Both the position numbers and the translations under genes were made by a program. 46,854 nucleotides of DNA from a virus. This document shows, piece by piece, positions 1 through 46,820 of this stretch. The notes under the pieces were generated by a model. That model saw only the letters and a program-made list of their open reading frames with translations. It was not told the origin of the DNA and did no database searches. Numbering within the stretch: position 1 is the first letter of the stretch; every line of letters begins with the position of its first letter. The stretch covers positions 1-46,854 of IMG/VR virus record IMGVR_UViG_3300028498_000028, one strand, 5' to 3'.

Positions 1-53
1 GCACTACACTGGGGGTGTAGTGGTCGCAGGTTCAAATCCTGCCGTTCCGACCA
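1..53 (+). tRNA. tRNA-Pro(GGG), 3' part only
   Basis: The window begins inside a tRNA. Visible parts are the anticodon arm (stem CTACA/TGTAG around the loop CTGGGGG, anticodon GGG with G at position 37, as usual for proline), a short variable loop, a T-arm (GCAGG, TTCAAAT, CCTGC), the acceptor strand CGTTCCG, discriminator A and an encoded CCA. The 5' half lies outside the window, so the isotype rests on the anticodon alone. The T-arm and acceptor end serve as the attachment site for the elements downstream. Confidence 0.9.
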
Positions 54-54
54 A
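27..54 (+). other. attL of element 1 (28-bp core)
   Basis: This 28-bp stretch of the tRNA-Pro 3' end is repeated without mismatch at 34832-34859. The flanking bases differ (26 versus 34831, 55 versus 34860), so the repeat limits are sharp. An integrase gene lies 300 bp inward. Integration leaves a functional tRNA 3' end on the left, as usual for tRNA-targeting tyrosine integrases. Confidence 0.9.
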
Positions 55-66
55 GAAATACTAATT

Positions 67-99
67 AACTCAACGGCTTAGGTCGTTGAGTTATTTTTT
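67..99 (+). terminator. rho-independent terminator after tRNA/attL
   Basis: A perfect 9-bp stem (AACTCAACG at 67-75 with CGTTGAGTT at 84-92) and an 8-nt loop are followed by a run of T. It lies on the element side of the att core, so element 1 supplies the terminator for the tRNA transcript. It may also stop the leftward int operon. Confidence 0.8.
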
Positions 100-120
100 T
101 GGCACAAATTTGGCACAAAT
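99..120. repeat. tandem TTGGCACAAAT, probable left arm-type integrase sites
   Basis: Two exact, abutting 11-mers occupy 99-109 and 110-120. A close variant pair, TTGGCACAGAT, occurs at 34712-34722 and 34724-34734 inside the other end of the same element. Paired short repeats on both arms are what the N-terminal arm-binding domain of a tyrosine integrase recognises. The site assignment is an inference from repeat and position. Confidence 0.65.
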
Positions 121-347
121 CAACAGCTCATACCCCAATTTATAGCAATCTGCTGTATAAGACTACTTTTACATGCTGTTCCTAAGAAGTTGATCACAAG
201 AACCCCTATCAAAGCTATAAACCCAAACCAAATTGTTAGAGTTAGTGGCCAATTAGTTAAGCTTTGACTCTCGCAATCCCTGCAACGCCAATCATTCTTT
301 CTGAGCCTAGCCCCACAATCTGGGCACCGCTTATGATTAATAAACAT
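120..347 (-). CDS. small zinc-ribbon membrane protein, unknown function
   Basis: A 75-aa protein. The N-terminus has a CPDCG and a CRDCE knuckle about 12 residues apart, forming a probable zinc ribbon. A hydrophobic stretch at about residues 38-57 is long enough for one membrane helix. It is the last gene of the leftward early operon and starts 1 nt after the integrase stop, with AGGTGAG as ribosome binding site. The tandem arm-type repeats overlap its stop region. No function can be assigned. Zinc-ribbon plus membrane-helix proteins are common as small uncharacterised genes of many bacteria and phages. Confidence 0.6.
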   Translation of the reverse strand: MFINHKRCPDCGARLRKNDWRCRDCESQSLTNWPLTLTIWFGFIALIGVLVINFLGTACKSSLIQQIAINWGMSC

Positions 348-348
348 C

Positions 349-1497
349 TCACCTATTCCCCGTATTTAATTTAGCAATCTCACTACGTGCTTTCGACACA
401 TCAATCCAGCGCGCATATCTAGTCTCAAGCGTTCTCACGCTATGGCCAGTTTGTTTGGCTACAAAGTATATATTCAATCCATCTGTTAAACAGTTAGTTA
501 TAAAGGTATGCCGCGTCGTATAAGTAGCCCGATGCCGTATGCCAGTCGCTTTCATCGCTTCAGTTAGTGTCCTTCTTGGCGTCTTATCTGTCTGCCAAGC
601 ACTATTAATAAAACGCGGCGACATAAATAGTCGATCACTCACTACTGATTTAATACCTTTTAATCGCTTCAGTGCATCTTCACTGCGAGCATTAAAGAAC
701 ACGTCACGATATTCAGCGGTCTTAGTACGATTAACGAGTTCACCATCGCTCATGACTTTACTGACTTTAATCAATCCGGCATCCCAATCGATATCATCCC
801 AAGTCAGTGCGAGTAGTTCACCTGTACGCATACCGGTCCAGAACGCTAATTCAAAATACAACCAATATACTGCTTCGTCTTTACCGTATTTGTCATGCAG
901 CCAGGTAAGCAGACGCTCCATTTCATCACGACTGAATGGGTCCGGTGGCGGGCTCTGATGCTTAGTGTTTTTGATTTTATCAACTGGATTGACATGGATG
1001 ACGCTATCATCTAATGCAATAGCAAAAACCCCGCGTAAGGGGATCAGGTTATTATTACGTGTCTTTTCACTAGACCAAATAATGTCCGCTATCAATGTGC
1101 GGACTTCTTTTGCGCTAATGGTATGGATTTCGCGTTGGTACCAGATGGGCAGCCAGTATAAGTCTAGTGATTTGGCGTATTCACGCAAGGTGGCTTTACT
1201 GACATCTGATTGCTTGAGGTAAAGCCTAGCGTAGTCTAAAAATGTGGGAGTGGTTTTTGGGGCATCATCGTTACCGCACAATTCATTGATAATATCTTCA
1301 GTAAGTGTGCCCCATTTGGCATGGTCTGCTAGGCGATTTCTGATAACAGACGCGGCGGTGTAGCCCCGATCAGTTGCGGGGAGCTTTTCAAGCGTTTGCC
1401 AGCGCCTCTTTTTGTGCCACATCCACCAGATACGGATAGTACCGTTTCTGTCGGTGACGCCTGTGGGCAGCGATTTGCTGCTTGCTGACTTGCCCAA
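349..1497 (-). CDS. int: tyrosine integrase of element 1
   Basis: A 382-aa site-specific recombinase that inserts and excises the prophage at the tRNA-Pro site. The C-terminal catalytic domain shows the expected set: Arg224 in GMRTGELL, Lys near 259, Arg329 in TTRHTF, His352 in GHS and the nucleophile Tyr361 in TRYARW. The N-terminus has the SAM-like core-binding region and an arm-binding start around GVTDRNGTIRIWW. No ATG lies near the expected N-terminus, so the start is taken as TTG at 1497; the next Met is within the domain. The gene overlaps the excisionase frame by 169 bp and lies at the end of the leftward pL operon, so it is probably expressed on induction. Confidence 0.92.
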   Translation of the reverse strand: MGKSASSKSLPTGVTDRNGTIRIWWMWHKKRRWQTLEKLPATDRGYTAASVIRNRLADHAKWGTLTEDIINELCGNDDAPKTTPTFLDYARLYLKQSDVSKATLREYAKSLDLYWLPIWYQREIHTISAKEVRTLIADIIWSSEKTRNNNLIPLRGVFAIALDDSVIHVNPVDKIKNTKHQSPPPDPFSRDEMERLLTWLHDKYGKDEAVYWLYFELAFWTGMRTGELLALTWDDIDWDAGLIKVSKVMSDGELVNRTKTAEYRDVFFNARSEDALKRLKGIKSVVSDRLFMSPRFINSAWQTDKTPRRTLTEAMKATGIRHRATYTTRHTFITNCLTDGLNIYFVAKQTGHSVRTLETRYARWIDVSKARSEIAKLNTGNR

Positions 1498-1718
1498 TTG
1501 TTATACCCCGCAATACTATAATAGAGGCGACCATCATCAAACTTAGCCCAGACAATGCCTTCTGGCCACATCTCATGCTTGCCGCGTAACGATGATTGCT
1601 TGATACCAGTGATTTGCTCAAAGCGCTCAGCTTGTACCCAGTCAATCAACCCGCCACCATTTTGTATCACTTCGATAAGCTGGTCAATAATTTGCGGAAT
1701 ATTAGTTGTATTAGCCAT
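1329..1718 (-). CDS. xis: excisionase-like protein
   Basis: A 129-aa product starting at ATG 1718 behind AAGGAG. Residues 1-83 match the small excisionase-like proteins next to integrases in gammaproteobacterial prophages: a helical start, then GIKQSSLRGKHEMWPEG and YYSIAGYNNW, a winged-helix region that recognises DNA. These proteins normally end shortly after the GYNNW motif. Here the frame stays open for another 46 residues inside the integrase gene, giving a low-complexity tail. Loss of the usual stop, or an uncorrected frame, would explain it. Its role would be to direct excision together with the integrase. Confidence 0.7.
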   Translation of the reverse strand: MANTTNIPQIIDQLIEVIQNGGGLIDWVQAERFEQITGIKQSSLRGKHEMWPEGIVWAKFDDGRLYYSIAGYNNWASQQAANRCPQASPTETVLSVSGGCGTKRGAGKRLKSSPQLIGATPPRLLSEIA

Positions 1719-3487: not shown

Positions 3488-3840
3488 TACGCCACCTCGC
3501 TGTGTTCGCTATTGGCAGCTACAATGTCAAGTAGCGGCTCAAGGTTAATGTTTTGTGCGTATGCGCTACGCAAATCGGCTTCGAGATATACGAGTGTCGG
3601 CCAGTACACTGGATTGATATGGCAACGACGATGCGACACTTGAGTAATGATCAGGCGCAATTGCCCAGCGACATCAAGCATCGCTTGCTGGTCGCGGATG
3701 CATATTGGCTTGGCGATATGAGCACACCACTGTTCGTTTGCATCAAACAAGGCTATACGGCTGACAGTATTGCTGAGCTTGGCGTTTTGAATGAGCGATA
3801 CCAGGATAGCGCTGGGCTTGATATTGGCGATATTAAGCAT
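3487..3840 (-). CDS. hypothetical early protein
   Basis: A 117-aa protein. The start at ATG 3840 is supported by GGAGG six bases upstream and by its 8-nt overlap with the end of the preceding gene; the open frame extends further but without such a site. The sequence is helix-rich (MLNIANIKPSAILVSLIQNA) and includes a Cys/His/Arg patch (HRRCHINP). No family is recognised. Confidence 0.55.
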   Translation of the reverse strand: MLNIANIKPSAILVSLIQNAKLSNTVSRIALFDANEQWCAHIAKPICIRDQQAMLDVAGQLRLIITQVSHRRCHINPVYWPTLVYLEADLRSAYAQNINLEPLLDIVAANSEHSEVA

Positions 3841-4879
3841 AGCAAGCCTCCAGTGCCGCGCGAAATGCTGGCAGTTCGGCTTCGGTGATGGTGCGATAAG
3901 TATTATCTTTATTAAAATATATGTTGGTGTACGCCCCAACCCTATCGTTACTGAGCTGCTTACCTAACAATATAACGTCAACCTTACTGCAGTTAATATC
4001 TTCTGCTAGCTGGGTTGCGATGACAACAGCAAAGCAGTCTTTACCGCGATGTTTACCGACAATAAGATCCCACGGCTCAATACTAATGCCGCCAATGTGA
4101 TAATCATCTTCGCTAAAGCGACCCATGCTATGCATGCGCTGTATTAAAACGTCAGATAAGTTTTTGATAAAGATAAGCTGCATATCAGCTTGGGTGATTT
4201 GTGGCACTGACTCTGATAGCCAGTCGCTTTGATCTATTGCGTCATCAATAGGTGGTACGGCTTCGTCCAAGTCACTGCTTAGATAATCGACATCGTTGAC
4301 GGTTTCGCGGTCGATAGCGCTGTTCTGCCAAGCTTTATTAGATCGAAGATCGCAAAGGTATATGGCTTTTGAACCATCTTGTGCATACCACAATAGGTAG
4401 CCGTCGTTTTCATTCTTTGCCAAATCTTTTACTGGTACTTGGAACAGCCAAACTTCATTATCAGCATCTTTAGCAGCACTTATCCACTTAGCATCCTGCC
4501 CTTCAAACACCCACTGCCCCATCTGTTTAAGCTCAGGCTTAACATTTTCGCCATGATGTACCACCCCATTTGAATCATTATCAGCATCTTTAGCAGCACT
4601 TATCCACTTAGCATCCTGCCCTTCAAACACCCACTGCCCCATCTGTTTAAGCTCAGGCTTAACATTTTCGCCATGATGTACCACCCCATTTGAATCATTA
4701 GCCGCTGCATCTTGCACAGCCGCCAACAGTCCGCCAATCGGCATAACGTTGCCAAAGTTTAGGCGATGCGGTACTGCATCTAGCTTGGTTTTTAAATCGG
4801 CAATAGAGGCTTTGGTTTCGTCGTCAAACCCAATCGTGAAACGACCGATTACTTCACCCTTTGCAGTTGACTGGCTCAT
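3833..4879 (-). CDS. large early protein with internal 40-aa duplication
   Basis: A 348-aa acidic protein, the largest gene of the left operon after int. The start at ATG 4879 follows GGAGG six bases away and overlaps the upstream stop (ATGA). A 40-residue unit beginning NDSNGVVHHGENVKPELKQM and ending AKDAD occurs twice in direct succession without any difference. The second half carries beta-rich, Trp-containing segments and the acidic linker DVDYLSSDLDEAVPPIDDAIDQ. No enzymatic motif is visible. Similar proteins in this operon position are uncharacterised. Confidence 0.65.
   Translation of the reverse strand: MSQSTAKGEVIGRFTIGFDDETKASIADLKTKLDAVPHRLNFGNVMPIGGLLAAVQDAAANDSNGVVHHGENVKPELKQMGQWVFEGQDAKWISAAKDADNDSNGVVHHGENVKPELKQMGQWVFEGQDAKWISAAKDADNEVWLFQVPVKDLAKNENDGYLLWYAQDGSKAIYLCDLRSNKAWQNSAIDRETVNDVDYLSSDLDEAVPPIDDAIDQSDWLSESVPQITQADMQLIFIKNLSDVLIQRMHSMGRFSEDDYHIGGISIEPWDLIVGKHRGKDCFAVVIATQLAEDINCSKVDVILLGKQLSNDRVGAYTNIYFNKDNTYRTITEAELPAFRAALEACYA
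4455..4700. repeat. exact 120-bp tandem duplication inside a CDS
   Basis: Units 4455-4574 and 4575-4694 are identical base for base, followed by six bases of a third unit (TCATTA, 4695-4700). The period is 120 bp, so the reading frame is kept and 40 residues are added. Complete identity, including synonymous positions, points to a recent event. Confidence 0.95.
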
Positions 4880-5100
4880 GCAACACCTCCAAACGCCAGA
4901 ACCACAATCAACAAAACGCACAAAGCCATAAGCATACGAGTGTTTTTGCACGCATGCTTATAGCTAAGTTGTGTATTAGTCAGTTGTTGTTCGACAGTGT
5001 GTAGCTGCTGATTACGGTCAGCAAGTGTGTTTTGAAGGCGCTTGATATCGTACTTAGTACGCTGCGTTTGTAGACCATCGCTGCTTTGATTATGTGACAT
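4876..5100 (-). CDS. coiled-coil, tail-anchored membrane protein
   Basis: A 74-aa protein, first gene of the leftward pL operon. Residues 15-50 form a probable coiled coil (KRLQNTLADRNQQLHTVEQQ), and residues 54-73 are a single C-terminal membrane helix (MLMALCVLLIVVLAFGGVA). This layout resembles small inner-membrane phage proteins involved in exclusion or signalling, but no family is recognised. Confidence 0.6.
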   Translation of the reverse strand: MSHNQSSDGLQTQRTKYDIKRLQNTLADRNQQLHTVEQQLTNTQLSYKHACKNTRMLMALCVLLIVVLAFGGVA

Positions 5101-6486: not shown

Positions 6487-6987
6487 ATGTCGACCACAAT
6501 ATTTACATCAGCTCAGCGCGCAGAACACTGCGTATTATCACTTGAACAATCTGTCTATCACGCTTGCAAAAAAGAGCGCGGCACACTGGGCAAGATTGCT
6601 GATATATATGGCGTTAACTACAACACGCTTGCATTACAAGTGAATCCAAACCGTGGCAGCCACACACTAGCGCCTGAGACGATTGAATTAGTACTCGAAC
6701 ATACCCAGTCGTCATTAATCATGGATGCTATCTGCTGTGCTCACGGCAACGCTGGATGGTTTTTGCTGCCAGATGCTGACAATCAATGTGATGAGATGAT
6801 GGGCATTGCTTTGTTAGGTCAAAAGTTCGCTGACTTAAATAGCACTGCTATTGATGCTTACGCCGACAAGATTATCGAACCTGACGAAAATGCACGTATT
6901 CAAAGAGACTGCCAAGCTTTAATTCGTCATATTCATGGGATCTCGGAAAGTTCCAAACGTAATATGGAGAGACACAATGACAGATAA
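6487..6987 (+). CDS. CII-like regulatory protein
   Basis: A 166-aa protein resembling the phage CII/CP76 regulators: an N-terminal helical domain (SLEQSVYHACKKERGTLGKI), a HTH-like segment (IADIYGVNYNTLALQVNPNR, with the family's L..K/Q.NP signature) and the HTLAPETIELVLEHT helix. It probably activates lysogenic promoters or sets the early-gene programme. The last 11 nt overlap the primase start. Confidence 0.75.
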   Translation: MSTTIFTSAQRAEHCVLSLEQSVYHACKKERGTLGKIADIYGVNYNTLALQVNPNRGSHTLAPETIELVLEHTQSSLIMDAICCAHGNAGWFLLPDADNQCDEMMGIALLGQKFADLNSTAIDAYADKIIEPDENARIQRDCQALIRHIHGISESSKRNMERHNDR

Positions 6988-7993
6988 ACGCACCCCATTA
7001 GATTTTGATGCCATACGCGCAGCCGCTGTCGGCAACTATGTCTCGACTATCTTTCCTGCTGCTGGTATCAGCTTCACTAAACCAGCCCATCAGCATCAGC
7101 CATGCCCTATGTGTGGCGGCTCTAATAGATTTCGTTGTGATAACAAGCGCGGTGAAGGGACTTGGATATGTTCACAGTGCGGCGCAGGTAACGGCTTTAT
7201 GCTCGTAGAGCAATACACTGGTCTTGATGTTTATGACACCAACAAGCTGATTGCAGGCGCTATCGGACTTGATGCTACCAGTGAAGTGACTGATGAACAA
7301 CGCGCTCAGTGGCAATCACAGCAAGTCGAACGTGAAGCAGCGGAGAAAGCTGAAAAGCGCCAGGCTCGTATTGATGCTGCCAGTCGTGCCCAAAGTATCT
7401 GGGATAAATCAAAACCAGCAGACGACGATCATCATTATTTACTACGCAAAAATGTCTCAGCGATTGGATTACGCCAAGACACAAACGATAATCTGATTAT
7501 ACCGATGCATTACTATAATAGTGATACCAAACAAACCACATTGGTTAATGCGCAAACTATCGCCGCAGATAGTGAAAAGCTATTTTTAAAAGGCGGATTG
7601 GTCAGCGGTGCCTACTTTACAATTGGCAGTCCTGCTATGTTTATCGCTGGTGTGATCTTGATTTGTGAAGGATATGCGACTGGTGCGACTGTGTTTGATG
7701 CCATGAGTTATAGCCTGCCTGTCATCGTTGCTTTTAACGCTCATAATTTGATACCTGTTGCTCAAGCAATACGTGCTCAATATCCTGATCATCGCATTAT
7801 CATCTGTGCTGATGATGACAGTGCGACTGCAATCAAGATGCGTGACAAAGACGTGGAAGACGGCAAAGAGCCAAAACCACTTGTTGAATATAACGTCGGT
7901 ATCTATAAGGCCCAGCAAGCTGCTATCAGCGTGAATGGTGAAATGGTCACGCCCAGCTTCAATATATTAGACATAGACAAGGATGCGGCGTAA
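6977..7993 (+). CDS. phage primase: zinc finger + toprim
   Basis: A 338-aa DNA primase of the P4-alpha/toprim type. An N-terminal zinc ribbon (Cys43, Cys46, Cys65, Cys68; CPMCGG...CSQCG) binds template DNA. A charged helical linker follows at about 105-145, then a toprim domain with Glu231 in ICEGYATG and the DDD acidic cluster at 279-281. ATG 6977 follows GGAGA. The typical toprim ending (a DFNDL motif) is missing here and instead begins the next gene, which starts on the overlapping TAATG. Confidence 0.85.
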   Translation: MTDKRTPLDFDAIRAAAVGNYVSTIFPAAGISFTKPAHQHQPCPMCGGSNRFRCDNKRGEGTWICSQCGAGNGFMLVEQYTGLDVYDTNKLIAGAIGLDATSEVTDEQRAQWQSQQVEREAAEKAEKRQARIDAASRAQSIWDKSKPADDDHHYLLRKNVSAIGLRQDTNDNLIIPMHYYNSDTKQTTLVNAQTIAADSEKLFLKGGLVSGAYFTIGSPAMFIAGVILICEGYATGATVFDAMSYSLPVIVAFNAHNLIPVAQAIRAQYPDHRIIICADDDSATAIKMRDKDVEDGKEPKPLVEYNVGIYKAQQAAISVNGEMVTPSFNILDIDKDAA

Positions 7994-9696
7994 TGCGAGG
8001 CAAACAACATACAGACTTCAACGATCTCGCTGCCGCTTCTGGACTTAATGAAGTAGCACGCCAAATCAAATATGCACTAGCTAATCAGTCAATCGTGACT
8101 CAAGCTGCTAATGACGATTACAGTATGACTATCCCACCAACCGTCCAACACAATGGCAATGTACCGGCTGACGTCGAGCAAGAGATGCGTCTTGCTAATA
8201 TGCTCAAACGCTATGCTCAAATCACTGATATTGGCAAAGTGACGAATAAAATCTATGACACTGAGCAAAAGATTGAATATAGCAAGATGCAGTTCGCTAA
8301 TGAGATTGGTAATAAGAAGCTAGCAGACCTTTGGTGGAAGTCACCGCACCGTAAAATTGCTAAGTCCGAAGTCGCAAAAGACCTTGATGTGATGATGGCT
8401 GTTGAAGCTCAATCGATGTTCCAGCGTTACTTCCTTATTTACGGTACCAAAGAAGTATGGGATGACGTTGAGCGTATTCGTTTACCAGTTGATACCATCA
8501 AGCTAGCACGTCCTAATGAGTATGAAATTTGGCTTAAGTCAGAGGCCCGCATTACTATCAAGGCGGATAATATTTGGTTTGACCCAACACGTACTAAGTC
8601 ACCTAAGCATGACAAAGATATCGCTATCAATACATTTGATGGTCTACCATTAAAGCCGATTGAGACTGAGCTAATTGACGCTGCTGCCATGTGCAAGCCG
8701 ATCACCGACCTATTATTGCATTTGTGCGAAGGTAATAAAGAAGTGTATGAATGGGTACTTAGATGGTTAGCAATACCTTTGCAGCAGCCTGGTACCAAGC
8801 TTGATACCGCTCTCATCTTTCACGGCGAAGTGCAAGGCGCTGGTAAGTCAATATTCTTCGACCGCATCATGAGCCGTATCTATGGCGACTATGCTGTCAC
8901 ACTTGGTCAAGGACAACTTGACTCTCAATACAATGATTGGGTATCTAATAAGTTATATGCACTGTTTGAGGAAATATTTAGCGGAAGCGATAGCTACTCA
9001 CAAATGGGTATGGTTAAGCAATTGGTAACAGGCAATACAATTTATATTAGTAAAAAGTTTATGAGCGGTTGGCAGCAAGATAACTTTGTTAATGCGATAT
9101 TCTTATCGAACAACATGAAGCCCTTAGCTCTTGAGCAAAATGACAGAAGGCACGTCGTCTGCTATCCACAGCAAAAGATTCCCGAACCCATCCTAAATAA
9201 AGTCGCGTCAGCACTAACTGACACCGATGACAAGATGCTACGTGCTTTTTACACTTTACTACTGATGACTGACTTAAAAGACCAAACAGCACATACACCG
9301 GCGATTATGACTCAGAGCAAGCGTGAAGTGATCAGATTAAGCCAACCAAACTGGGAAGTTTTTTACGATGATTGGTCGAACAATAACTTAGAGATACCCT
9401 ACTGCTGCTGCCTTAGTGGCGATTTATATTTTGTTTATCGTCAGTGGTGCCAGAGAGGCGGTGAACGCCCAACCACCGAAACCAAACTCATGACATATAT
9501 TGGTAGACGCGAAGCTAAATCACGGATAAAATACAGAACGCCCAATATGAATGCCGCAAAACAAGCCATGGTCCTAGCTATAGCCTTGCCGACATCTTAT
9601 CCATCTGATAAGTTTGGCACTCAACAAGACTGGATCGGCGGACAGATTCACCGATTCAAGCTCGCAATCAATAATATTTACGACCCAAAACAATAA
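7993..9696 (+). CDS. replicative helicase, SF3/DUF5906 type
   Basis: A 567-aa replication protein. Residues 278-286 are a Walker A (GEVQGAGKS), followed by a Walker-B-like LYALFEEI and the sensor region FVNAIFLSNN, as in the D5/P4-alpha-like helicases annotated as DUF5906. The first 30 residues (TDFNDLAAASGLNEVARQI) are the usual C-terminal tail of the toprim domain. The gene pair thus looks like a primase-helicase split by a one-base shift at TAATG, with translational coupling. Together they should open and prime the origin just downstream. Confidence 0.85.
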   Translation: MRGKQHTDFNDLAAASGLNEVARQIKYALANQSIVTQAANDDYSMTIPPTVQHNGNVPADVEQEMRLANMLKRYAQITDIGKVTNKIYDTEQKIEYSKMQFANEIGNKKLADLWWKSPHRKIAKSEVAKDLDVMMAVEAQSMFQRYFLIYGTKEVWDDVERIRLPVDTIKLARPNEYEIWLKSEARITIKADNIWFDPTRTKSPKHDKDIAINTFDGLPLKPIETELIDAAAMCKPITDLLLHLCEGNKEVYEWVLRWLAIPLQQPGTKLDTALIFHGEVQGAGKSIFFDRIMSRIYGDYAVTLGQGQLDSQYNDWVSNKLYALFEEIFSGSDSYSQMGMVKQLVTGNTIYISKKFMSGWQQDNFVNAIFLSNNMKPLALEQNDRRHVVCYPQQKIPEPILNKVASALTDTDDKMLRAFYTLLLMTDLKDQTAHTPAIMTQSKREVIRLSQPNWEVFYDDWSNNNLEIPYCCCLSGDLYFVYRQWCQRGGERPTTETKLMTYIGRREAKSRIKYRTPNMNAAKQAMVLAIALPTSYPSDKFGTQQDWIGGQIHRFKLAINNIYDPKQ

Positions 9697-10447: not shown

Positions 10448-10530
10448 TTAATGGGACAGTTCAGCTTAGTATTTCCTATATTCGAAGTTCCTGCCTAATC
10501 ATAAAGCAGACAAATCAAACATCATAAGTT

Positions 10531-34862: not shown

Positions 34863-34869
34863 CAATATT

Positions 34870-36373: not shown

Positions 36374-36375
36374 AT

Positions 36376-37221: not shown

Positions 37222-37351
37222 AACACCATTTTACTAGCTAAAATGTCACTTTAGCTGCTCCAATTCTGCAATTAATTCTATACCCCATAAGATGAACCGT
37301 ACAAGACAAGCCATTACATAGTGTAGTGGCACGTAGTACGGAGTCATTGAC

Positions 37352-37648: not shown

Positions 37649-37651
37649 GCC

Positions 37652-37933: not shown

Positions 37934-38212
37934 ATGAGCGTAACCGAACAGTTAGAAGTCTTAGAGCCGCGGCTGGTAGCAGTTGATACTTATACGCTAT
38001 GCCATGTGGACGACTACATACAAGACGTATCGAACGATTGTGAAAGCCTTGCTTATGCCTTGAACCTGATAGAAACCAGCGACCCAGCAAGCAAAGGCGT
38101 GATTGTAGCGGTACGTTCTGCACTACTGGCACACAGCGAACACGCCAGCAAAATGAGCGCGGACATCATGGGTAAGCTAATCACACAAGACGAGGTATCA
38201 ATCAATGAGTAA
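37934..38212 (+). CDS. small helical protein, paralogue of next gene
   Basis: A 92-aa acidic, all-helical protein. The centre (DCESLAYALNLIETSDPASKGVI) aligns with the following gene (DTSHLAMALQAVQVECAVSRGVI), including the downstream helix. No family is recognised. Overlap of 8 nt with the next gene implies coupled translation. Confidence 0.6.
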   Translation: MSVTEQLEVLEPRLVAVDTYTLCHVDDYIQDVSNDCESLAYALNLIETSDPASKGVIVAVRSALLAHSEHASKMSADIMGKLITQDEVSINE

Positions 38213-38456
38213 TCAAATATCAGTATCAGCCGACCAGCTAGAAAATATCAATGAGCAAATAGTGCTACTCGATATTGATACCAGTCATCTAGCAATGGCA
38301 TTGCAAGCTGTGCAAGTAGAGTGCGCGGTATCAAGAGGCGTTATTAATACCGTCATAACTGCACTAAGAGCTACGTCAAAGTCACTAGGGGGCATTACTG
38401 ACGAATTAGATTATATGCTTACCACAGCGAAGCAGGAGGTAACAGACCATGAGTGA
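38205..38456 (+). CDS. small helical protein, paralogue of preceding gene
   Basis: An 83-aa acidic helical protein with the same S-x-L-A-x-A-L ... S-[RK]-G-V-I pattern as the gene before it. The pair probably arose by tandem duplication and diverged. They could form a heteromer. No function assigned. It overlaps the next gene by 8 nt. Confidence 0.6.
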   Translation: MSNQISVSADQLENINEQIVLLDIDTSHLAMALQAVQVECAVSRGVINTVITALRATSKSLGGITDELDYMLTTAKQEVTDHE

Positions 38457-38967
38457 TAAGACTAGAACCAATCCAAAGCCCCAGTATGGGGCACAGGCTG
38501 GCAAGCGCGGCTTATTGCTAAGGTTTACTATCTTTATGGCATGGGTGGTAGGTATTGGCTTACTACTCTCACTGGTGACTTGCAAGCCAGCCAGCGCAAA
38601 ACAGATTGCAACCAATGATAACAGCGGTTACTATATAGACCTCTCAAATTCTACAAGCGGACAAGCCAGCCGTGACTTTTTGGCTTTTTTTGTGCCTGAT
38701 AATAGCGCAGCCTCTCAAGCTGTCACTATGCCATCAAGCACTACCCTAAGAGCGCATTTAAGCGCATCAAGGGGGCATTCCCTCATATCTATAGCAAGTC
38801 ACTTGCTAACCGACTATGACGGGTTGACGCTGCAAAATAAAATAGCCGTAAGGCGAATATGCAGGGCGGTTTCTTGTAGAACCGAGAGTAAGACCCGTCA
38901 CCCTATATCTTTACTGTATAGCGTGGCATTAACTCAAAAACTACAAGGAGCTATCCATCATGGGTAA
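38449..38967 (+). CDS. membrane-anchored or exported protein, unknown
   Basis: A 172-aa protein with a positively charged N-terminus and one strong hydrophobic segment at about 22-44 (LLLRFTIFMAWVVGIGLLLS), followed by CKPASA, which could be a signal peptidase I site. The remaining 120 residues (NNSGYY, RGHSLISIASHLLTDYDGLT, paired Cys in ICRAVSCRT) would then lie outside the cytoplasm. An exported protein inside a replication operon is unexpected. The ribosome binding site AGGAGGT is strong. Confidence 0.6.
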   Translation: MSDKTRTNPKPQYGAQAGKRGLLLRFTIFMAWVVGIGLLLSLVTCKPASAKQIATNDNSGYYIDLSNSTSGQASRDFLAFFVPDNSAASQAVTMPSSTTLRAHLSASRGHSLISIASHLLTDYDGLTLQNKIAVRRICRAVSCRTESKTRHPISLLYSVALTQKLQGAIHHG

Positions 38968-39568
38968 TTCAATCCGCACGACCTCAAACACTCAAAACAC
39001 CCCTACACTAGCCACATTCAAAGCTGGTGACAGTGTTCTATGCCCATCATTAAGCTTTACCTCGTTTGTACTGACAGCCGACCCATACGGCAAGCGTGAC
39101 CTATTGGCACTTACTCACGATGGCAGCAACATCTACTACGATGATAAAGGTTACTTTGTGCCGTCATGCGACAAAGAAACAGGCGATTATCAGCCGTCAT
39201 TATTCCAAGACACGCCAGCCAACCGCCAAGCAGTTGCAACCCTATATAACGGTAAGTTTACTGTTCAAGCCAATCAGCGCACAGTGATAGACACCACCGA
39301 AGCAGATGACAATATAGTCGTCACTATGTCGTCACATGGTTTATCACACATTACTAGCGACATTTACGGGGCAGCCAATGCCTTACATGATGTTGGTTAT
39401 CTGCTAGGGCTTATTTACTACGGCAAGATAGAGGGGGAAGCCGTCAAGTCTATGGCACGTTTGGCACATGACGCTACTAATACATGGGAGGACATACTCC
39501 GCACTCAACTAGACATCATTAACGAACCCCTAGCAATGACTGGTTACAGCAAGGTAGGTGCAGAATGA
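38960..39568 (+). CDS. hypothetical protein of the replication operon
   Basis: A 202-aa acidic protein. The N-terminal half is beta-rich (FKAGDSVLCPSLSFTSFVLT, RDLLALTHDGSNIYYDDKGY). The second half has helices (ITSDIYGAANALHDVGYLLG). It overlaps both neighbours by a few bases (ATGA at its 3' end). No family is recognised. Confidence 0.6.
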   Translation: MGNSIRTTSNTQNTPTLATFKAGDSVLCPSLSFTSFVLTADPYGKRDLLALTHDGSNIYYDDKGYFVPSCDKETGDYQPSLFQDTPANRQAVATLYNGKFTVQANQRTVIDTTEADDNIVVTMSSHGLSHITSDIYGAANALHDVGYLLGLIYYGKIEGEAVKSMARLAHDATNTWEDILRTQLDIINEPLAMTGYSKVGAE

Positions 39569-39678
39569 AAACCTACCCACCAAAGCAAAGCCGTAAGCAC
39601 GCCAAGCGCAAAAGCTACTACAAGAAGTATCAAGCCAAGCGTAAGCCGAACCAGTCACAAGCAAGGGGGAACAGATGA
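39565..39678 (+). CDS. 37-aa very basic protein
   Basis: A tiny frame MKTYPPKQSRKHAKRKSYYK followed by KYQAKRKPNQSQARGNR: 14 of 37 residues are Lys or Arg. Its ATG overlaps the upstream stop (ATGA at 39565) and its stop overlaps the primase start (ATGA at 39675). The exact double overlap supports translation. Nucleic acid or RNA binding is likely from charge; the function is unknown. Confidence 0.6.
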   Translation: MKTYPPKQSRKHAKRKSYYKKYQAKRKPNQSQARGNR

Positions 39679-42182
39679 CCACCACACCACAAACAGCCGC
39701 CCATGAAAAAGCCCGTGCGTTTAGCACAGGCTTTACAGTGGTAATGAATAGTTTTGATGCAGTCACACGGCAAGGACTGGCAGACGATAAGCTATTGCTT
39801 AAACTATATGACCTACTACCGCCTAATAGCTTGCTCAACGTCACCGACAATCTTACTACAAATGATGACAAAGTAGTACCGACCACTGGCACGATAGCCC
39901 TAAGATTGACCGATAAACAAGGCGATATTGTAGGCGCGGTATTCTACACACCAAACAGCAAAGCAAAGCCCATTGTCATTGACCCTACAGGGTATGGCGC
40001 TATCGTCATTGGTGACACTAACAAAGGCAGTGAGGTGATAGCGTTTGATGACTTAGAGAACGGCATAGATGCTTATGCGTGCCTGATGGCAAGTGATAAG
40101 AATATTATTGTTAGCCCTCAAAAGACAAACCAGCACCTTAAAAAGATGGTGCAGCATTGGAGCGCCGCCGCGCCCGTTACCGTGCCTATGACACTTGATA
40201 ACAAGGGCTTAATAAACTCATTGGCAGGTGTGAAAGCTCAAGCACTGGTTACCGTAGCTGATATGGTCACGATGCTACAAGATGATAGTTATCAGGCAAT
40301 ACTGGCAGCTGATGACACCCAGCTAATCAATTTACAAGATACTGCCTACTATCCCGAATGGCGCGATGACCCACAGCTTAACGCGCCTATGATGCATGAT
40401 GACGGACGTTTTGAGCTATACCATGATGGGCTGTTCTTTGTGAAATATAACGATGACGACCCAGCAAACATAACCTTTAAGTTTAAGGCGTTTGTTTGTT
40501 CACCGATTGAGGTTATCGCTAAGACTAGGGACACAAGCAGCGGTACATGGGGGCGGTTACTGCAATGGCGTGATGATGACAGCGAGCTACACACATGGTC
40601 AATGCCACTTGCTTTATTACAAGGTGATGCCCGTGAGTATCGTAGAGAGCTAGCCAGTCAAGGATTGAGCATTACCACCAATGGCAAACAGCGCAGCTAC
40701 TTAGACACCTATATTCAAGACTACCCCATTCACAAACGGGCATTATGTGTTGATAAGCTAGGCTGGCATGGTGAGCAATATATATTACCTGATGGTGCAA
40801 TAGGCAGCGATGGCAAGCAGTTAATAGTTTATCAGTCTGCCCATGCAATCAATAGCACCATAGCCCAGCAAGGCACACTAGAACAATGGCGTGATGAATT
40901 ATGCAAGAAACTTGCCGAACAGAGCCGTTTTGTTTTCTCTATTGCTTGCGCGTTTGCTGGTCAATTACTGGAATTACTCGATGATGACGGTGGTGGTTTT
41001 CATATCGTAGGTTCATCAACTATGGGTAAATCATTATCACTAAAAGTAGCAGCTAGTGTATGGGGCAAGCCTGACAGCTATACTAAAACATGGCGCAGTA
41101 CTGATAACGCCTTAGAGGGCACAGCAAGCGAGCATAACGACAGCTTTTTACCGCTTGATGAAATCAGTGAGGGCGACCCTAAAGTAGTTGGTAAAGTCGT
41201 TTACATGCTGGCTAATGGTCAAGGAAAAGGGAGGAGTACCACCACGGGGCACAATCGCATAGCCAAAAAGTGGCGCATTATCTTCCTATCTAATGGCGAA
41301 AAAACCATACAGCAAGAAATGGCAGTAACAGGACAGAAAACCAATGCAGGTATAGAGGTTCGGATAGCACATATTGATGCTGATGCTGGGGCTGGTAATG
41401 ACTTAAGGACGTTTGATAGTTTGGTACTGGCAGAAACAGGCGCAGAACAAGCCGATAAAATCAAAGACCTATATTATAGATACTATGGTGTGGCTGGCAT
41501 GGCATGGTTAGAACATATCACTACTGATAAAACAGCAACCACAGCCACCGCCAAGCAGCTTGTCAGTGACTTTATGAGCCAATATACAGACCTTGCACCA
41601 CAAGCGCATAGAGTAGCTAGAAGGTTCGCTATTGTGGCTGCTGCTGGTGAAATGGCAACAGGTGCAGACATAACAGGCTGGCAAGCAGGACAAGCAACCA
41701 CAGCCGTTATGACATGCTTAGATAATTGGCTTGATAACTATGGGCGTGATGGTGAGCATGAGCAGCGCCAAATCATAGACCATATCAAAGCATTTATTGA
41801 ACAACATGGAGCAAGTCGCTTTCAGCCTTGTTATAGAAGCACGCGCTTAGACTTTGAGGAAAGAACCCCTAACCGTGTAGGCTATCGAAATATGGACACG
41901 GGGGATTATTATTTTTCTAAAGAAACTTTTGATAGCGTCTGTGCGCCTTTTAGCAAAAAGAAAGTCTTACAAGTATTAGAGGAAGCCGACTTGTTACTAC
42001 TCAATCAAGGTGACCGTAAAATCTACAAAGCGCCTGATACTTTATTTAGTGGCAAGCAACGCCCGTCTGTTTACGCGGTTACTGCTGATATACTTTGTTG
42101 TGAACCTACTAAAACGACTGGGACAGACGGGACGGACGGGACAGGCTATATGCAGCAAGGGGTTACGCTGTCCCATTGCTAA
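39675..42182 (+). CDS. DUF927-type primase/helicase of element 2
   Basis: An 835-aa replication protein. The centre matches the DUF927 helicase fold of P4-like satellites and plasmids: KLGWHGEQYILPDGAIGS, Walker A GSSTMGKS (446-453), Walker-B-like FLPLDEISEG at about 491-500 and ANGQGKGRSTTTG. The N-terminal 300 residues form a primase-like or toprim-like region (VIDPTGYGAIVIGD; ENGIDAYACLMASDKNIIV). The last 20 residues (TTGTDGTDGTG) are encoded by the iteron array. It should start replication at the adjoining repeats. Confidence 0.88.
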   Translation: MTTTPQTAAHEKARAFSTGFTVVMNSFDAVTRQGLADDKLLLKLYDLLPPNSLLNVTDNLTTNDDKVVPTTGTIALRLTDKQGDIVGAVFYTPNSKAKPIVIDPTGYGAIVIGDTNKGSEVIAFDDLENGIDAYACLMASDKNIIVSPQKTNQHLKKMVQHWSAAAPVTVPMTLDNKGLINSLAGVKAQALVTVADMVTMLQDDSYQAILAADDTQLINLQDTAYYPEWRDDPQLNAPMMHDDGRFELYHDGLFFVKYNDDDPANITFKFKAFVCSPIEVIAKTRDTSSGTWGRLLQWRDDDSELHTWSMPLALLQGDAREYRRELASQGLSITTNGKQRSYLDTYIQDYPIHKRALCVDKLGWHGEQYILPDGAIGSDGKQLIVYQSAHAINSTIAQQGTLEQWRDELCKKLAEQSRFVFSIACAFAGQLLELLDDDGGGFHIVGSSTMGKSLSLKVAASVWGKPDSYTKTWRSTDNALEGTASEHNDSFLPLDEISEGDPKVVGKVVYMLANGQGKGRSTTTGHNRIAKKWRIIFLSNGEKTIQQEMAVTGQKTNAGIEVRIAHIDADAGAGNDLRTFDSLVLAETGAEQADKIKDLYYRYYGVAGMAWLEHITTDKTATTATAKQLVSDFMSQYTDLAPQAHRVARRFAIVAAAGEMATGADITGWQAGQATTAVMTCLDNWLDNYGRDGEHEQRQIIDHIKAFIEQHGASRFQPCYRSTRLDFEERTPNRVGYRNMDTGDYYFSKETFDSVCAPFSKKKVLQVLEEADLLLLNQGDRKIYKAPDTLFSGKQRPSVYAVTADILCCEPTKTTGTDGTDGTGYMQQGVTLSHC

Positions 42183-42317
42183 AAACCGTAACGGGACGAA
42201 CGGGACAGGATTTTACGTTTTAGCCTTTCTGTCCCGTCTGTCCCATTGCTAAAAACGATAACGGGACGGCTGTAAGCCATACCACGTAAGGGCTGTCCCG
42301 TCTGTCCCGCTTGTCCC
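42120..42317. repeat. GGGAC/GTCCC iteron array, candidate origin of element 2
   Basis: Twelve boxes occur: GGGAC at 42120, 42129, 42138, 42193, 42202, 42263; GTCCC at 42170, 42231, 42240, 42295, 42304, 42313. Within each cluster the spacing is exactly 9 bp. A larger direct repeat (GTCCCATTGCTAAAAAC) begins at 42170 and 42240. The array starts in the primase gene and ends 135 bp after it. Iterons next to a P4-type primase are the expected origin signature. Confidence 0.75.
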
Positions 42318-42340
42318 ATGCAAAAACATAAGGTACAGAA

Positions 42341-42362
42341 AAAATAATCAAAGGTAGGCGTT
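42341..42362. repeat. 22-bp direct repeat, left copy of cargo module
   Basis: It is identical to 46201-46222 (begins AAAATAATCAAAGG). The two copies enclose the regulator and restriction-modification genes. Confidence 0.85.
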
Positions 42363-42380
42363 TATCGTCCGCCTTTTTTT
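42351..42380 (+). terminator. terminator after the iterons
   Basis: AAGGTAGGCG pairs with CGTCCGCCTT (one mismatch, two wobbles) and is followed by TTTTT. The first arm and 12 bases before it recur at 46201-46222. Confidence 0.65.
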
Positions 42381-42493
42381 ATGGCTGATACTTTCCTTTT
42401 TATAGTAGTAGGCTAAAGCCAATAGCCCAAAACCCGACAAAATATAACTGTATTGTTGTATTATGAGGGCATATAAAAACCGAGGTTTAATCT

Positions 42494-42793
42494 ATGACGC
42501 ATTTTAGCGCACTAAATGATTATGTAGCAGACTTGCCAGCCGATAGACAACAAGCGATCAATAATAAATCTAAAATATTAAGCCAGTCTATTGAGCTTGC
42601 CAAAATACGCAAAAGCAAACAGCTAAAGCAGACTGAGCTTGCCGTCATTATGGGTGTGTCACAAGCCAGCATATCAAAGGTAGAAAGCGGTAAAGACATT
42701 CAGCTATCGACTTTGCAAAACTATGTTAGAGCGTTAGGTGGTGAGGTAAGCATTATCGCTAAGATGCCAAACAGTGACGTTATATTGATATAG
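42494..42793 (+). CDS. XRE-type regulator, antitoxin-like
   Basis: A 99-aa DNA-binding protein. The HTH spans about residues 38-75 (KQLKQTELAVIMGVSQASIS), followed by KVESGKDIQLSTLQNYVRAL and GGEVSIIA. This ending (STL..YVRALGGE) is typical of HigA-like antitoxins. No toxin gene adjoins; the restriction-modification gene begins 97 bp downstream. It may act as the controller that delays restriction. A promoter-like AT-rich stretch precedes the gene. Confidence 0.8.
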   Translation: MTHFSALNDYVADLPADRQQAINNKSKILSQSIELAKIRKSKQLKQTELAVIMGVSQASISKVESGKDIQLSTLQNYVRALGGEVSIIAKMPNSDVILI

Positions 42794-42890
42794 CACCCTC
42801 ACCCTATAGGCGAACCCTCACAACTTTCATACCTTATTTTAAATTTTATAATCCAGCCCATTTATTAATCAATACCAATTAGGGATATCT

Positions 42891-45800
42891 ATGTCAGATA
42901 GCAATCATCAATACGTTAGCGATTACGTCAATAAAGTAGCCTCAAGAGTTAAGTTAGGTCATAGCTCAGAACATACTTTCCGTAAAGATTTAGAGGATTT
43001 GATAAACAATCTAGTGCCTGATGTGATGGTCACCAACGAACCAAGCCAAGTAACCGATTGTGGCAACCCTGACTTTTTGATTAGTAAAGATAATATCCCT
43101 ATTGGTTTTATTGAGGCTAAAGATGTTGGCAAGGACTTAAGCTCTAAGCTCTATAAAGAACAGTTTGATCGCTATAAAGCCGCGCTTGATAACTTGATAA
43201 TTACCGATTACACGGTATTTGAATTTTACGAGTATGGCGAGCTTAAAAAGACCATTCGTTTGGCTTATATATCAGAAAACAATACAAACTATGAAAGCTC
43301 CTTAGTAGGTAATGAATATTGTGAAGAAAACTACGAAACCTTTGCTGAGACACTAGAGAAGTTTTGTGGCTACAAAGGTCAGACCATCAAGTCTGCCCAG
43401 CGCCTTGCAGTTATGATGGCAGGTAAAGCTCGACTACTTGAAAATACGCTTTATCACGCATTGACCAGTGATGAGAAGTCAGATGAAAATTCAGACCTAC
43501 GTGACCAATTTGAAACCTTTAAGGCTGTACTCATCCATGACCTAACACCAGCAGACTTTGCTGATATTTATGCACAAACGCTAGCTTATGGTATGTTTGC
43601 CGCACGTTTGCATGATGACACCTTAGACACTTTTAGTCGTCAAGAGGCGGCTGAGCTTATCCCTAAGACCAATCCATTCTTAAGAAAACTATTCTCTCAC
43701 GTGGCTGGTATTGATATTGACGACCGTATAAAAACCACGGTAGATAACTTAGCGGAAGTTTTTAGAGCCACCGATGTAGCGGCTATCCTTCAGAATTTCG
43801 GTAAAACAACCCAAACACAAGACCCTATTATTCACTTTTACGAGACCTTTCTAGCGGAGTACAACCCAAAACTCCGCAAGCAACGTGGCGTATGGTACAC
43901 CCCTGAGCCAGTGGTTAAGTTTATTGTCCGCGCTGTAGATGATATTTTGAAGTCTGAGTTTGATTTAGCAGACGGTATAGCAGATACCAGTAAGATAGAA
44001 ATAGAAAAACAGACACAAACCCCTGATAGTCGTACTAAGACGGGCTATAAGATGGTTAAAGAGTTGGTACATAAGGTGCAAATTCTTGATCCAGCGACTG
44101 GTACAGGGACATTCCTTGCCGCCATTATTCAGCATATCTTTCACAGTCAGTTTGAGAATATGGGCGGCATTTGGAGTAGCTATGTTGAGCAAGACCTATT
44201 GCCACGCTTGCACGGTTTTGAGCTATTGATGGCAAGCTATGCAATGGCGCACTTAAAGCTTGATATGCTACTTGCTGATACAGGCTATGAGCCTATTAAG
44301 CCTAAACGTATGCAGGTCTATCTGACCAACTCACTAGAAGAACATAATCCCGATACAGGAACGCTATTCGCTGGCTGGCTGTCTGCTGAGGCAAATGAGG
44401 CTAACGCCATTAAGCGTGACGCGCCAGTGATGGTAGTAATCGGTAATCCACCTTATGCGGTGAGTAGCACGAATAAAGGCGAGTGGATTCAGGGTTTAGT
44501 AGCGGATTATAAAAAAGGCTTAAATGAGCGAAATATCCAACCTTTATCAGACGATTACATTAAATTCATCCGTTATGGTCAGCATTATATCGAGAAGAAT
44601 GGCGAAGGTATCTTAGCTTTTATCACTAATAATAGTTTTGTCGATGGCGTTATTCATCGTCAAATGCGTAAGAGCTTATTAGAGAGTTTTGATAAAATTT
44701 ACGTTTTAGATTTACATGGTAACGCTAGAACATTAGAAACTACGTTAGATGGTGGGAAAGACGAAAATGTTTTCGATATTATGGCAGGTGTTTCAATTAA
44801 TATTTTTATCAAAACTAATAAAAAACAGAAAAGTAGTTCAAGTAGAGTTTTTACTTATGACCTATTAGGTAAAAGAGACTATAAATATAAAACCCTTGAT
44901 AAATCAAGCATAGATAACCTTAATTGGACTGAAATAAAAGCTCAAGAACCTGAATATTTCTTTAGCAAGCAAAACTTTGAACTAAAAGATATTTACCTGA
45001 AAGGATTGCAGATTAGTAAACTTTTCAACTCTCATGCAAGTGGTATTAAATCAGAAAGAGATCATTTAATAGCAAGTTTCGATAAAGATGATTTATTAAA
45101 TATATTAAAAGACTCCAGTTTTTTAACTGTAGAAGAATTTAGACAAAAGCATACTCCAAAAAAAGATGGCAGAGACTGGAAAGTAAAAACTGCAATTGAA
45201 GATTTACAAACTAACAGCCCAGCAATAGTCAGATTCAACTATAGACCATTCGATCATAGATACACTTTTTACACAGGAAAAACTAAGGGTTTTATGGCTT
45301 ATCCTAGAGACGAGGTTAACAAAAATATAGTTTTGAAAGACAACTTATTACTTCTTTCTTGTCGTCAGCAATCTACATTTGATTTTCAGCATGTTTTTAT
45401 TTCTAAACTTATTTCTGATATGTGTTCCGTTTCCTTACAAACCAAGGAAACTGGTTATACGTTTCCTCTTTATATTTATACAAACCCAGAGCAAGACAAC
45501 CAAACCAATCTATTAGAAGCAAATAACCAAGACACGCCCGCCGATACCGCAAAAAGAGTGCCAAATCTTGACCCCAAAATCATAGCAGACATTGCTAAAG
45601 CCATTGGCTTAACCTTTACCAATGAAAAGGAAGATACGGCTGGCACGTTTGCACCGATAGATATTCTTGATTATATCTATGCCGTATTGCACAGCCCGAC
45701 ATATCGTGAGACCTATAAAGATTTTTTAAAGATAGACTTCCCACGTGTGCCCTATCCCAGCGATGCCGATACTTTTTGGCAGTTAGTCGCGCTTGGTAGC

Positions 45801-46178
45801 GAGTTACGTCAAATTCACTTATTAGAGTCACCAAAGCTTGCCGCACAAACTAAAGCGCTTGGTATAGGTTATCCAGTAGGAGGTGATAATGCCGTTACTC
45901 GTAAAATGACCAAGACCAGCGTTGGCTTTGAGCCTGACGAAGTAGATAGCAGCATTGGTAAAGTTTGGCTTAACGATACTCAGTATTTTACTAATGTGCC
46001 ACTTGTGGCATGGGAGTTTTATATCGGTGGTTATCAGCCAGCGCAAAAGTGGCTCAAAGATCGTCAAGGTCGAACGCTTGATATAAGTGATGTTAGGCAT
46101 TATATGAACATTATCGCAGCGCTGAGCCTAACCCATGAGCTGATGCAGCAGATTGATAATATCAAACTGGTGGGCTAA
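42891..46178 (+). CDS. single-chain restriction-modification enzyme (type IIG/ISP-like)
   Basis: A 1095-aa enzyme. The N-terminus has a PD-(D/E)xK nuclease (Asp61 in NPDFLI, Glu75 and Lys77 in GFIEAK). The middle carries an N6-adenine methylase: motif I DPATGTGT at 400-407 and motif IV NPPY at 519-522. The part from about 590 to 863 is AT-rich and probably the target-recognition domain; a conserved C-terminus follows. No SF2 helicase motifs are visible, unlike the roughly 1,570-residue LlaGI-type ISP enzymes. It would methylate host DNA and cut unmodified phage DNA. Confidence 0.85.
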   Translation: MSDSNHQYVSDYVNKVASRVKLGHSSEHTFRKDLEDLINNLVPDVMVTNEPSQVTDCGNPDFLISKDNIPIGFIEAKDVGKDLSSKLYKEQFDRYKAALDNLIITDYTVFEFYEYGELKKTIRLAYISENNTNYESSLVGNEYCEENYETFAETLEKFCGYKGQTIKSAQRLAVMMAGKARLLENTLYHALTSDEKSDENSDLRDQFETFKAVLIHDLTPADFADIYAQTLAYGMFAARLHDDTLDTFSRQEAAELIPKTNPFLRKLFSHVAGIDIDDRIKTTVDNLAEVFRATDVAAILQNFGKTTQTQDPIIHFYETFLAEYNPKLRKQRGVWYTPEPVVKFIVRAVDDILKSEFDLADGIADTSKIEIEKQTQTPDSRTKTGYKMVKELVHKVQILDPATGTGTFLAAIIQHIFHSQFENMGGIWSSYVEQDLLPRLHGFELLMASYAMAHLKLDMLLADTGYEPIKPKRMQVYLTNSLEEHNPDTGTLFAGWLSAEANEANAIKRDAPVMVVIGNPPYAVSSTNKGEWIQGLVADYKKGLNERNIQPLSDDYIKFIRYGQHYIEKNGEGILAFITNNSFVDGVIHRQMRKSLLESFDKIYVLDLHGNARTLETTLDGGKDENVFDIMAGVSINIFIKTNKKQKSSSSRVFTYDLLGKRDYKYKTLDKSSIDNLNWTEIKAQEPEYFFSKQNFELKDIYLKGLQISKLFNSHASGIKSERDHLIASFDKDDLLNILKDSSFLTVEEFRQKHTPKKDGRDWKVKTAIEDLQTNSPAIVRFNYRPFDHRYTFYTGKTKGFMAYPRDEVNKNIVLKDNLLLLSCRQQSTFDFQHVFISKLISDMCSVSLQTKETGYTFPLYIYTNPEQDNQTNLLEANNQDTPADTAKRVPNLDPKIIADIAKAIGLTFTNEKEDTAGTFAPIDILDYIYAVLHSPTYRETYKDFLKIDFPRVPYPSDADTFWQLVALGSELRQIHLLESPKLAAQTKALGIGYPVGGDNAVTRKMTKTSVGFEPDEVDSSIGKVWLNDTQYFTNVPLVAWEFYIGGYQPAQKWLKDRQGRTLDISDVRHYMNIIAALSLTHELMQQIDNIKLVG

Positions 46179-46200
46179 GTCCGCATAATCACATTAAGAC

Positions 46201-46222
46201 AAAATAATCAAAGGTAGGCGTT
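46201..46222. repeat. 22-bp direct repeat, right copy of cargo module
   Basis: Identical to 42341-42362. Similarity continues imperfectly for about 18 bases (GCGTCTGCCTTTTTG here, TCGTCCGCCTTTTTT there). Confidence 0.85.
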
Positions 46223-46238
46223 AAGCGTCTGCCTTTTT
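46211..46238 (+). terminator. terminator after the restriction-modification gene
   Basis: A 10-bp stem AAGGTAGGCG/CGTCTGCCTT (two wobbles) with the loop TTAAG is followed by TTTG. It is closely related to the terminator at 42351. Confidence 0.78.
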
Positions 46239-46720
46239 GTTTTGCCTGATTAACAGGCAGAAGGGGCGTATTAATACCACTCTTAAAGTATAAATATGAC
46301 GCACCAAGAGCGTTTAGCAAAACAACCCCATGAAAGAAAGTTGCAAGTCGATTTTAGTATCAACAAATCACTGTAATATATTTAAGAGGCTGGCATGATT
46401 GCCAATGGCTCGAATTGAATAAGACCCCATACGCAATAAAACGCATTATAAACGCAGCTATAAATTGCCTATATTTTGATAATCACAATCAGCAATGCAC
46501 GTTCTTTGCACCTATTTTGCACGGCTCAAAATGCTATTAATCACGCGCGTGCAGTGATTAGCAATTTAACCCCATGCAAACAAAGTGCAAGTATAAAAAA
46601 GTACGCCTAAGTTGCTGGCATGTTGATAATAATGATGACTTTAATAACCATAACCTATCGTCTGTTATCTTTACTTTTTACAGCTAAATGAGGGCTAAAA
46701 GCTAAGTGACTTTTGCATAA
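46239..46720. other. noncoding right end of element 2
   Basis: About 480 AT-rich bases with no supported gene. Notable are two TTTGCAC copies 11 bp apart (46505-46511, 46516-46522) and nearby GTGCAA words in the other orientation, which look like weak arm-type repeats of another integrase. No tRNA or terminator was seen beyond 46238. Confidence 0.5.
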
Positions 46721-46721
46721 T

Positions 46722-46746
46722 GCGGTATATTTTGCGGTATATTTTA
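46722..46746. repeat. right arm-type sites of element 2
   Basis: GCGGTATATTTT occurs at 46722-46733 and 46734-46745 in exact tandem. The same 12-mer starts the left set at 34972. It lies about 55 bp inside the terminal core repeat. Confidence 0.7.
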
Positions 46747-46799
46747 TTTTAATAAAACCTAAAACCTTTAATACCAATGCTTGCAGCCAATACTTTACT

Positions 46800-46820
46800 T
46801 CCTGCCGTTCCGACCAAACA
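46800..46820 (+). other. attR of element 2
   Basis: These 21 bases equal 34842-34862. They contain the acceptor end of tRNA-Pro plus five bases beyond its CCA. What follows (46821 on) is presumably chromosome. Confidence 0.85.

Follow-up and report, generated by a model that had tools for sequence, protein, structure and literature searches.

The window analysed here, 46,854 nucleotides in all, is the whole of one IMG/VR virus record (IMGVR_UViG_3300028498_000028) and is of Psychrobacter origin. It carries two elements in tandem at the 3' end of a tRNA-Pro(GGG) gene: a 34.8-kb siphophage prophage (element 1), then an 11.96-kb element (element 2, 34860-46799), which resembles a phage satellite and is our main subject. 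The features of element 2 and of the attachment (att) sites are as follows; lengths of proteins are in amino acids (aa) and HTH stands for helix-turn-helix.

1-54, + strand: tRNA-Pro(GGG) 3' end, outer attL; 28-bp core at 27-54
34832-34862, + strand: middle att, serving as element 1 attR and element 2 attL
34971-34997, + strand: left integrase arm repeats, CGGTATATTTTA twice
35020-36258, + strand: integrase, 412 aa, 100% identical in P. piscatorii (locus L003)
36376-37221, + strand: variable gene (281 aa) that separates int from alpA and matches no family
37352-37648, + strand: AlpA regulator, 98 aa (PF05930, 2.7e-7)
37652-37933, + strand: winged-HTH protein, HTH_39
37934-39568, + strand: four conserved small satellite genes, 92, 83, 172 and 202 aa
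39675-42182, + strand: DUF927 primase-helicase, 835 aa, Walker A and B motifs conserved
42118-42320, + strand: GGGACAG/CTGTCCC iterons, direct and inverted (12 GGGAC/GTCCC words)
42494-46178, + strand: cargo, an HTH regulator (42494-42793) and a Type IIG/ISP-like restriction-modification enzyme (42891-46178)
46316-46347, + strand: P-type site copy B, a variant
46560-46591, + strand: P-type site copy A, candidate packaging (cos/pac) site, matching at 32/32 positions the site before terS in the podovirus-like prophage of genome G105
46606-46626, + strand: tract X (CCTAAGTTGCTGGCATGTTGA), recurring after the P-type site in several satellites
46721-46747, + strand: right integrase arm repeats (CGGTATATTTTA repeats thus lie at both ends of element 2)
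46800-46820, + strand: element 2 outer attR, followed by the chromosomal flank

A satellite-like element and its family in Psychrobacter

An earlier note on this DNA, made from the letters alone, had described three copies of the tRNA 3' end, and these are present at 27-54, 34832-34859 and 46800-46817. The first two are identical over 28/28 bp. The right copy is shorter, matching the tRNA over 18 bp and the middle att copy over 21 bp (46800-46820). ARAGORN called no tRNA in the window, whose start truncates the gene, and the type, Pro(GGG), was read from relatives. The right flank (46800-46854) has one mismatch in 55 positions against unoccupied tRNA-Pro sites in four genomes (L099, L101, L104 and L112), so the outer boundary is placed correctly. 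Three kinds of flank follow the tRNA: GAAATACTA at the attL of element-1-type phages (G006, G015, G009 and G069), ACACAATATTAGGGC and close variants at the attL of satellites, and ACATAGTAGTA in empty chromosomes.

The same note had credited element 2 with an integrase, AlpA, primase/helicase and iterons, and with no packaging or virion genes, and this description stands. No terminase, capsid, tail, virion or lysis gene was recognised among the element 2 proteins. The iterons could be refined to the 12 words listed above; they lie just after the primase gene, as they do in seven of the eight relatives examined. This arrangement is expected of an origin, and the cluster is likely the replication origin. 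The note had overlooked the restriction-modification cargo, the integrase arm repeats and the sites at 46316 and 46560. Predicted structures of the 172-aa and 202-aa proteins are of low confidence (mean predicted local distance difference test scores of 42 and 63), and Foldseek returned no match at E <= 0.001 for either. A plasmid search gave no match, and a search of IMG/VR with the DUF927 primase gave no confirmed relative.

Terminator-like copies, 86% identical to each other, flank the cargo at 42337-42385 and 46197-46245, and one such copy was seen in the cargo-free relative L003. This bracketing suggests that the cargo region is an exchange slot.

Relatives of element 2 in the genome collection were found in Psychrobacter only, with nine close loci. 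We surveyed 105 Psychrobacter genomes, one per species and some with broken contigs. The family keeps the order int, variable gene, AlpA, small genes, DUF927 primase-helicase, GGGACAG iterons, defence cargo and att. A related DUF927 primase (>= 56% identity) occurs in 29/105 genomes, and single satellites with integrases 79-100% identical occupy tRNA-Pro(GGG) in at least 15. They span 8.3-19.3 kb (13 measured end to end), and no satellite examined at this tRNA in other genomes had a phage in tandem. Most sibling cargo is defence-like, including restriction-modification and toxin-antitoxin-like genes. In several members of the family the primase gene is broken. In P. piscatorii LQ58 (L003), an 8.9-kb relative lacks cargo and has the same tRNA, the same core genes and an identical integrase, which suggests recent spread. 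At the level of the family, the satellite-like nature proposed in the earlier note is supported.

Sites shared with phages at the right end of element 2 and its siblings

A search across the genus with the right-end DNA of L003 found a short conserved tract. One of the matches, 38 bp at 97%, lies directly upstream of terS in the G105 prophage. This phage combines a portal of the P22 type with a Phage_capsid_3 capsid and a TerL of the Terminase_6 type. The G105 phage, L003 and the window (at 46560) have the same 32-bp core, AGCAATTTAACCCCATGCAAACAAAGTGCAAG. We refer to this as the P-type site; both copies in element 2 sit in its non-coding right end. A degenerate P-type pattern occurs at 19 places in 17/105 genomes, and a reversed control pattern at none. 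Compared with integrase and primase coordinates, 15 of these places are on the same contig as a gene for a satellite integrase or primase, another is in the G105 phage, and 3/19 are left unassigned.

Among 2.9 million IMG/VR contigs the pattern was found on seven, six of which belong to one family of temperate phages of about 55 kb with a P22-type portal. In this family the gene order is Q-like gene, P-type site, TerS. The flanks of phages and satellites differ, only the 32-bp core being shared. A short P-type query had no match in a GenBank phage collection. Searches of IMG/VR with tract X and with the flank of site B found no phage, and tract X had no exact match there; it is possibly the site of an unsampled phage.

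A 33-kb viral contig of IMG/VR (IMGVR_UViG_3300028498_000046) has two P-type sites and a 3263-aa reading frame. No terS lies beside its sites, and it may be a further satellite-like element whose cargo is very large.

Sibling satellites carry sites of other kinds in the same region. In HK97, HNH proteins promote cos cleavage (PMC9410871), making the gap between the HNH gene and terS the expected position of cos. Three classes of site, which we call E, H and K, all map to this gap in HK97-type phages. The E-type site, present in element 1 at 10933-11001, lies 52-87 bp before terS in 13/13 related loci tested. At the right end of the satellite of genome G005, at the same tRNA, there are two sites: one is E-type (82% over 67 bp and, compared with a relative, 80% over as much as 98 bp), and the other is H-type (82-86% over 93-95 bp), from the HNH-terS gap of another HK97-like class. 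Other combinations are E-like with K-type (G042), E-like with P-type (G011) and a P-type site with a K-type site directly after it (G046, G034 and G061). A blind IMG/VR search with a satellite-derived K-type 18-mer returned nine contigs, all with the site 15-32 bp from terS, and an HNH gene lies upstream in 8/8 loci that reach far enough.

The G005 satellite also encodes a 189-aa protein like tail assembly protein I (L199:8738-9307), 57% identical to that of element 1 (26756-27319). The published satellite phiAH14b encodes a tail assembly protein I as well, and satellites may edit the tails of their helpers.

We put at about even chances the proposal that the family keeps, between attR and the last gene of its cargo, a cassette in which packaging sites can be exchanged, often two per element. 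The sites would have been taken from several unrelated phage families, among them P22-portal phages and three or more HK97-like classes. One satellite could then be packaged by different helpers, and lineages could switch helper through swaps of 30-90 bp. Arrays of packaging sites for several helpers may be new; the open-access literature yielded no description of Psychrobacter satellites or of multi-family site arrays, which is not proof that none exists. Helper choice and the widening of helper range are known mostly from a few laboratory pairs, and in the Psychrobacter satellites helper use is predictable from short non-coding sites. Satellites with one family of integrase, at a single tRNA, carry sites of different phage families, sometimes stacked, which makes helper switching testable by deleting or swapping sites.

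Helper of element 2

Element 2 is probably a cos-type satellite of the Gram-negative phage-inducible chromosomal island (PICI) kind that uses the P-type phage, with its neighbour being independent. Its gene content and boundaries, the spread of its family, and the identity and position of its site are observed. Induction, replication, cleavage, packaging and transfer are modelled on phiAH14b and EcCICFT073. By this analogy, an incoming or co-resident P-type phage (about 55 kb, P22-type portal) would trigger AlpA, under whose control int would excise element 2; the primase would replicate it from the iterons into concatemers. The terminase of the phage would then recognise the P-type site, and element 2 DNA would be packaged into the full-size heads of that phage. 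The neighbouring siphophage would be an independent prophage with an unrelated integrase that uses the same tRNA-Pro and inserted at the attL of the satellite.

Several published satellites provide a basis for this model. The closest in gene order is phiAH14b of Pseudomonas sp. ANT_H14, a satellite of phiAH14a that was found in capsids of helper proteins and that lacks capsid-size genes (PMC4936722). Like phiAH14b, element 2 has the order int, extra gene, AlpA, small genes and primase/DUF927-type helicase, and no terminase, virion or capsid-size genes were recognised in it. Its primase-helicase is 33% identical to the DUF927 helicase of phiAH14b over 57% of the query. It differs from element 2 in its host, its helper and its length of 16.8 kb, and in encoding primase and helicase separately; packaging sites were not described in that study (PMC4936722). 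The Gram-negative cos-type PICI EcCICFT073 (PMC6092414), whose DNA goes into full-size heads, carries two cosN copies identical to those of its helper but neither the helper cosB nor terS. Element 2 likewise has int, alpA and primase, no terS or capsid genes, and two copies of a short core from a candidate packaging region, one of them identical to that of a phage, in flanks that are not those of the probable helper. It differs from EcCICFT073 in that its att site is also used by a prophage, its primase is of the DUF927 type, its probable helper has a P22-type portal rather than a lambdoid genome, and its siblings stack sites of different phage families.

The core of int, AlpA and primase without capsid remodelling is shared with the Vibrio phage-inducible chromosomal minimalist islands (PICMI; PMC10803314). 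PICMI are packaged as concatemers in full-size heads, as proposed for element 2, but are about 6 kb and located at fis; the study did not identify a cos or pac site in the helper (PMC10803314). P4-like satellites (PMC8628076) resemble element 2 in their P4-type integrase domains, AlpA/Vis-type regulator, primase-helicase and defence cargo, and differ in that the element 2 primase is of the DUF927 type and its host lies outside Enterobacterales. Searches with Pfam and PHROGs gave no match to psu, sid or delta in element 2, four of its small genes having no assigned function and the P4 models themselves not being searched directly. PICIs are defined (PMC6092414) by an integrase, a replication module and a master regulator in conserved order, which element 2 has; by the absence of phage structural or lytic genes, as found among its proteins; by a size of about 12-15 kb, here 11.96 kb; and by an att site never occupied by prophages. 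Element 2 departs from this last feature, given that element 1 and its relatives in G006 and G015 use the same tRNA-Pro, and we therefore call it PICI-like rather than a PICI. PICIs are further marked by a terS homologue or a pac/cos sequence of the helper, and by induction and packaging that depend on the helper; for the former, element 2 offers its candidate site of 32 bp, identical to one that a phage has before terS.

With an integrase, AlpA-like regulators, a primase of the DUF927 type and a capsid gene of the P2 N type, a 10.2-kb entry named Pseudomonas phage vB_Pae_U10 (PP003922.1) resembles a satellite more than a phage.

Several observations weigh against the P-type phage as packaging helper. 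In phage loci that reach terS, the P-type site lies 248-1113 bp before it, farther than the sites of HK97-type phages. The phage is a prophage in only 1/105 genomes, one without a DUF927 element, and for this reason the helper and satellite were never seen together; many family members have no recognisable P-type site. In the phages, moreover, the site stands between the Q-like gene and terS and near a promoter-like stretch, TTGATT-N17-TAACTT. Alternatively, then, the site may serve the phage of about 55 kb in regulation, perhaps of late transcription, and the satellite may employ it to sense or use helper activation. The site in the satellite points through attP towards int, and two copies per element would be easy to explain for a regulator. 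We nevertheless regard this alternative as unlikely: the shared core lies upstream of the promoter-like stretch, which is conserved in the phages and missing from the satellites, and in the same place siblings carry HNH-terS-gap sites of three HK97-type classes, where cos is expected. Two cos copies also have a precedent in EcCICFT073 (PMC6092414). The defence cargo, the broken primase genes of several relatives and the analogical nature of the transfer steps would also fit a self-contained defence island or dead remnant that has no phage-dependent transfer. This we consider quite improbable for an element whose int, AlpA and primase are intact, with conserved Walker motifs, whose integrase is 100% identical to the P. 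piscatorii copy, and whose 32-bp non-coding site exactly matches a phage.

The earlier note had raised the neighbour as a possible helper, or else a merely shared att site. Adjacency and a length ratio near 3:1 favour the former, as does the G005 sibling with its element-1-type site and related tail-assembly gene. The G005 satellite also serves as the positive control for a negative result, namely that the E-type site is missing from element 2, where the best match is no better than in shuffled DNA. Elements 1 and 2 share no DNA above chance (longest exact match, 15 bp), and we rejected the idea of a helper acting via a shared cos. An element-1-like TerL (76% or more) occurs in 5/105 genomes and coincides with the DUF927 primase in two (about 1.4 expected; Fisher P = 0.61); the other 27/29 primase genomes lack such a TerL. 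Siblings fill the tRNA without any phage, and an element-1-type phage stands alone there in G015. What element 2 does carry is the site of another phage family, one unrelated to its neighbour. Hence element 1 is probably not its helper, and we think it very unlikely that it serves in this role. The shared att site, the second option of the note, is supported and looks coincidental. A satellite adjoining a prophage is thus not evidence that the prophage is its helper.

The length ratio itself proved uninformative, given the size range of siblings at the same tRNA. The small-capsid reading drawn from it was rejected because sibling sizes vary twofold. No P4 or small-capsid genes were recognised in the Pfam and PHROGs searches.

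The neighbouring siphophage prophage

At 55-34831 lies element 1, a complete siphophage prophage of the HK97 type. The note had called it a full prophage, and head, packaging, tail and lysis genes are all recognisable.

349-1497, - strand: tyrosine integrase, 382 aa
5362-6036, - strand: CI-like repressor
6935-9696, + strand: primase and helicase genes (6935-7993 and 7993-9696)
10578-10880, + strand: HNH endonuclease, 100 aa, adjoining the terminase genes; 72% to the HNH protein of the G076 phage
10933-11001, + strand: E-type site (beginning CCAGCGGACACCACTCCCC) in the HNH-terS gap, candidate cos
11014-13221, + strand: TerS (11014-11493) and TerL (11503-13221), HK97-type
13775-17387, + strand: protease, major capsid and portal
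17991-33584, + strand: neck, tail and endolysin region
20202-23369, + strand: tape measure
27322-31464, + strand: J-like tail protein
32934-33584, + strand: endolysin

Its integrase is weakly related to that of element 2 (28% over 96 aa), and copies 94-97% identical occur at tRNA-Pro in G006, G015 and IMG/VR contigs. In G015 the phage attR joins the chromosome directly, with no satellite. In G006 chromosomal genes follow the phage attR, plus a short stretch like the left end of element 2.

Among the head genes the portal follows the capsid, the more usual order being portal first. The last 200 bp or so of the gene preceding HNH (10350-10566) are 82-91% conserved between E-type and H-type phages that have very different TerL proteins, and this stretch is likely a recombination boundary. 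A perfect 120-bp tandem duplication (4455-4700) lies within the reading frame 3833-4951. Finally, the minus-strand genes at 33586-34404 and 120-347 adjoin the att sites; PADLOC returned no match for them, and they are possible morons or immunity genes.

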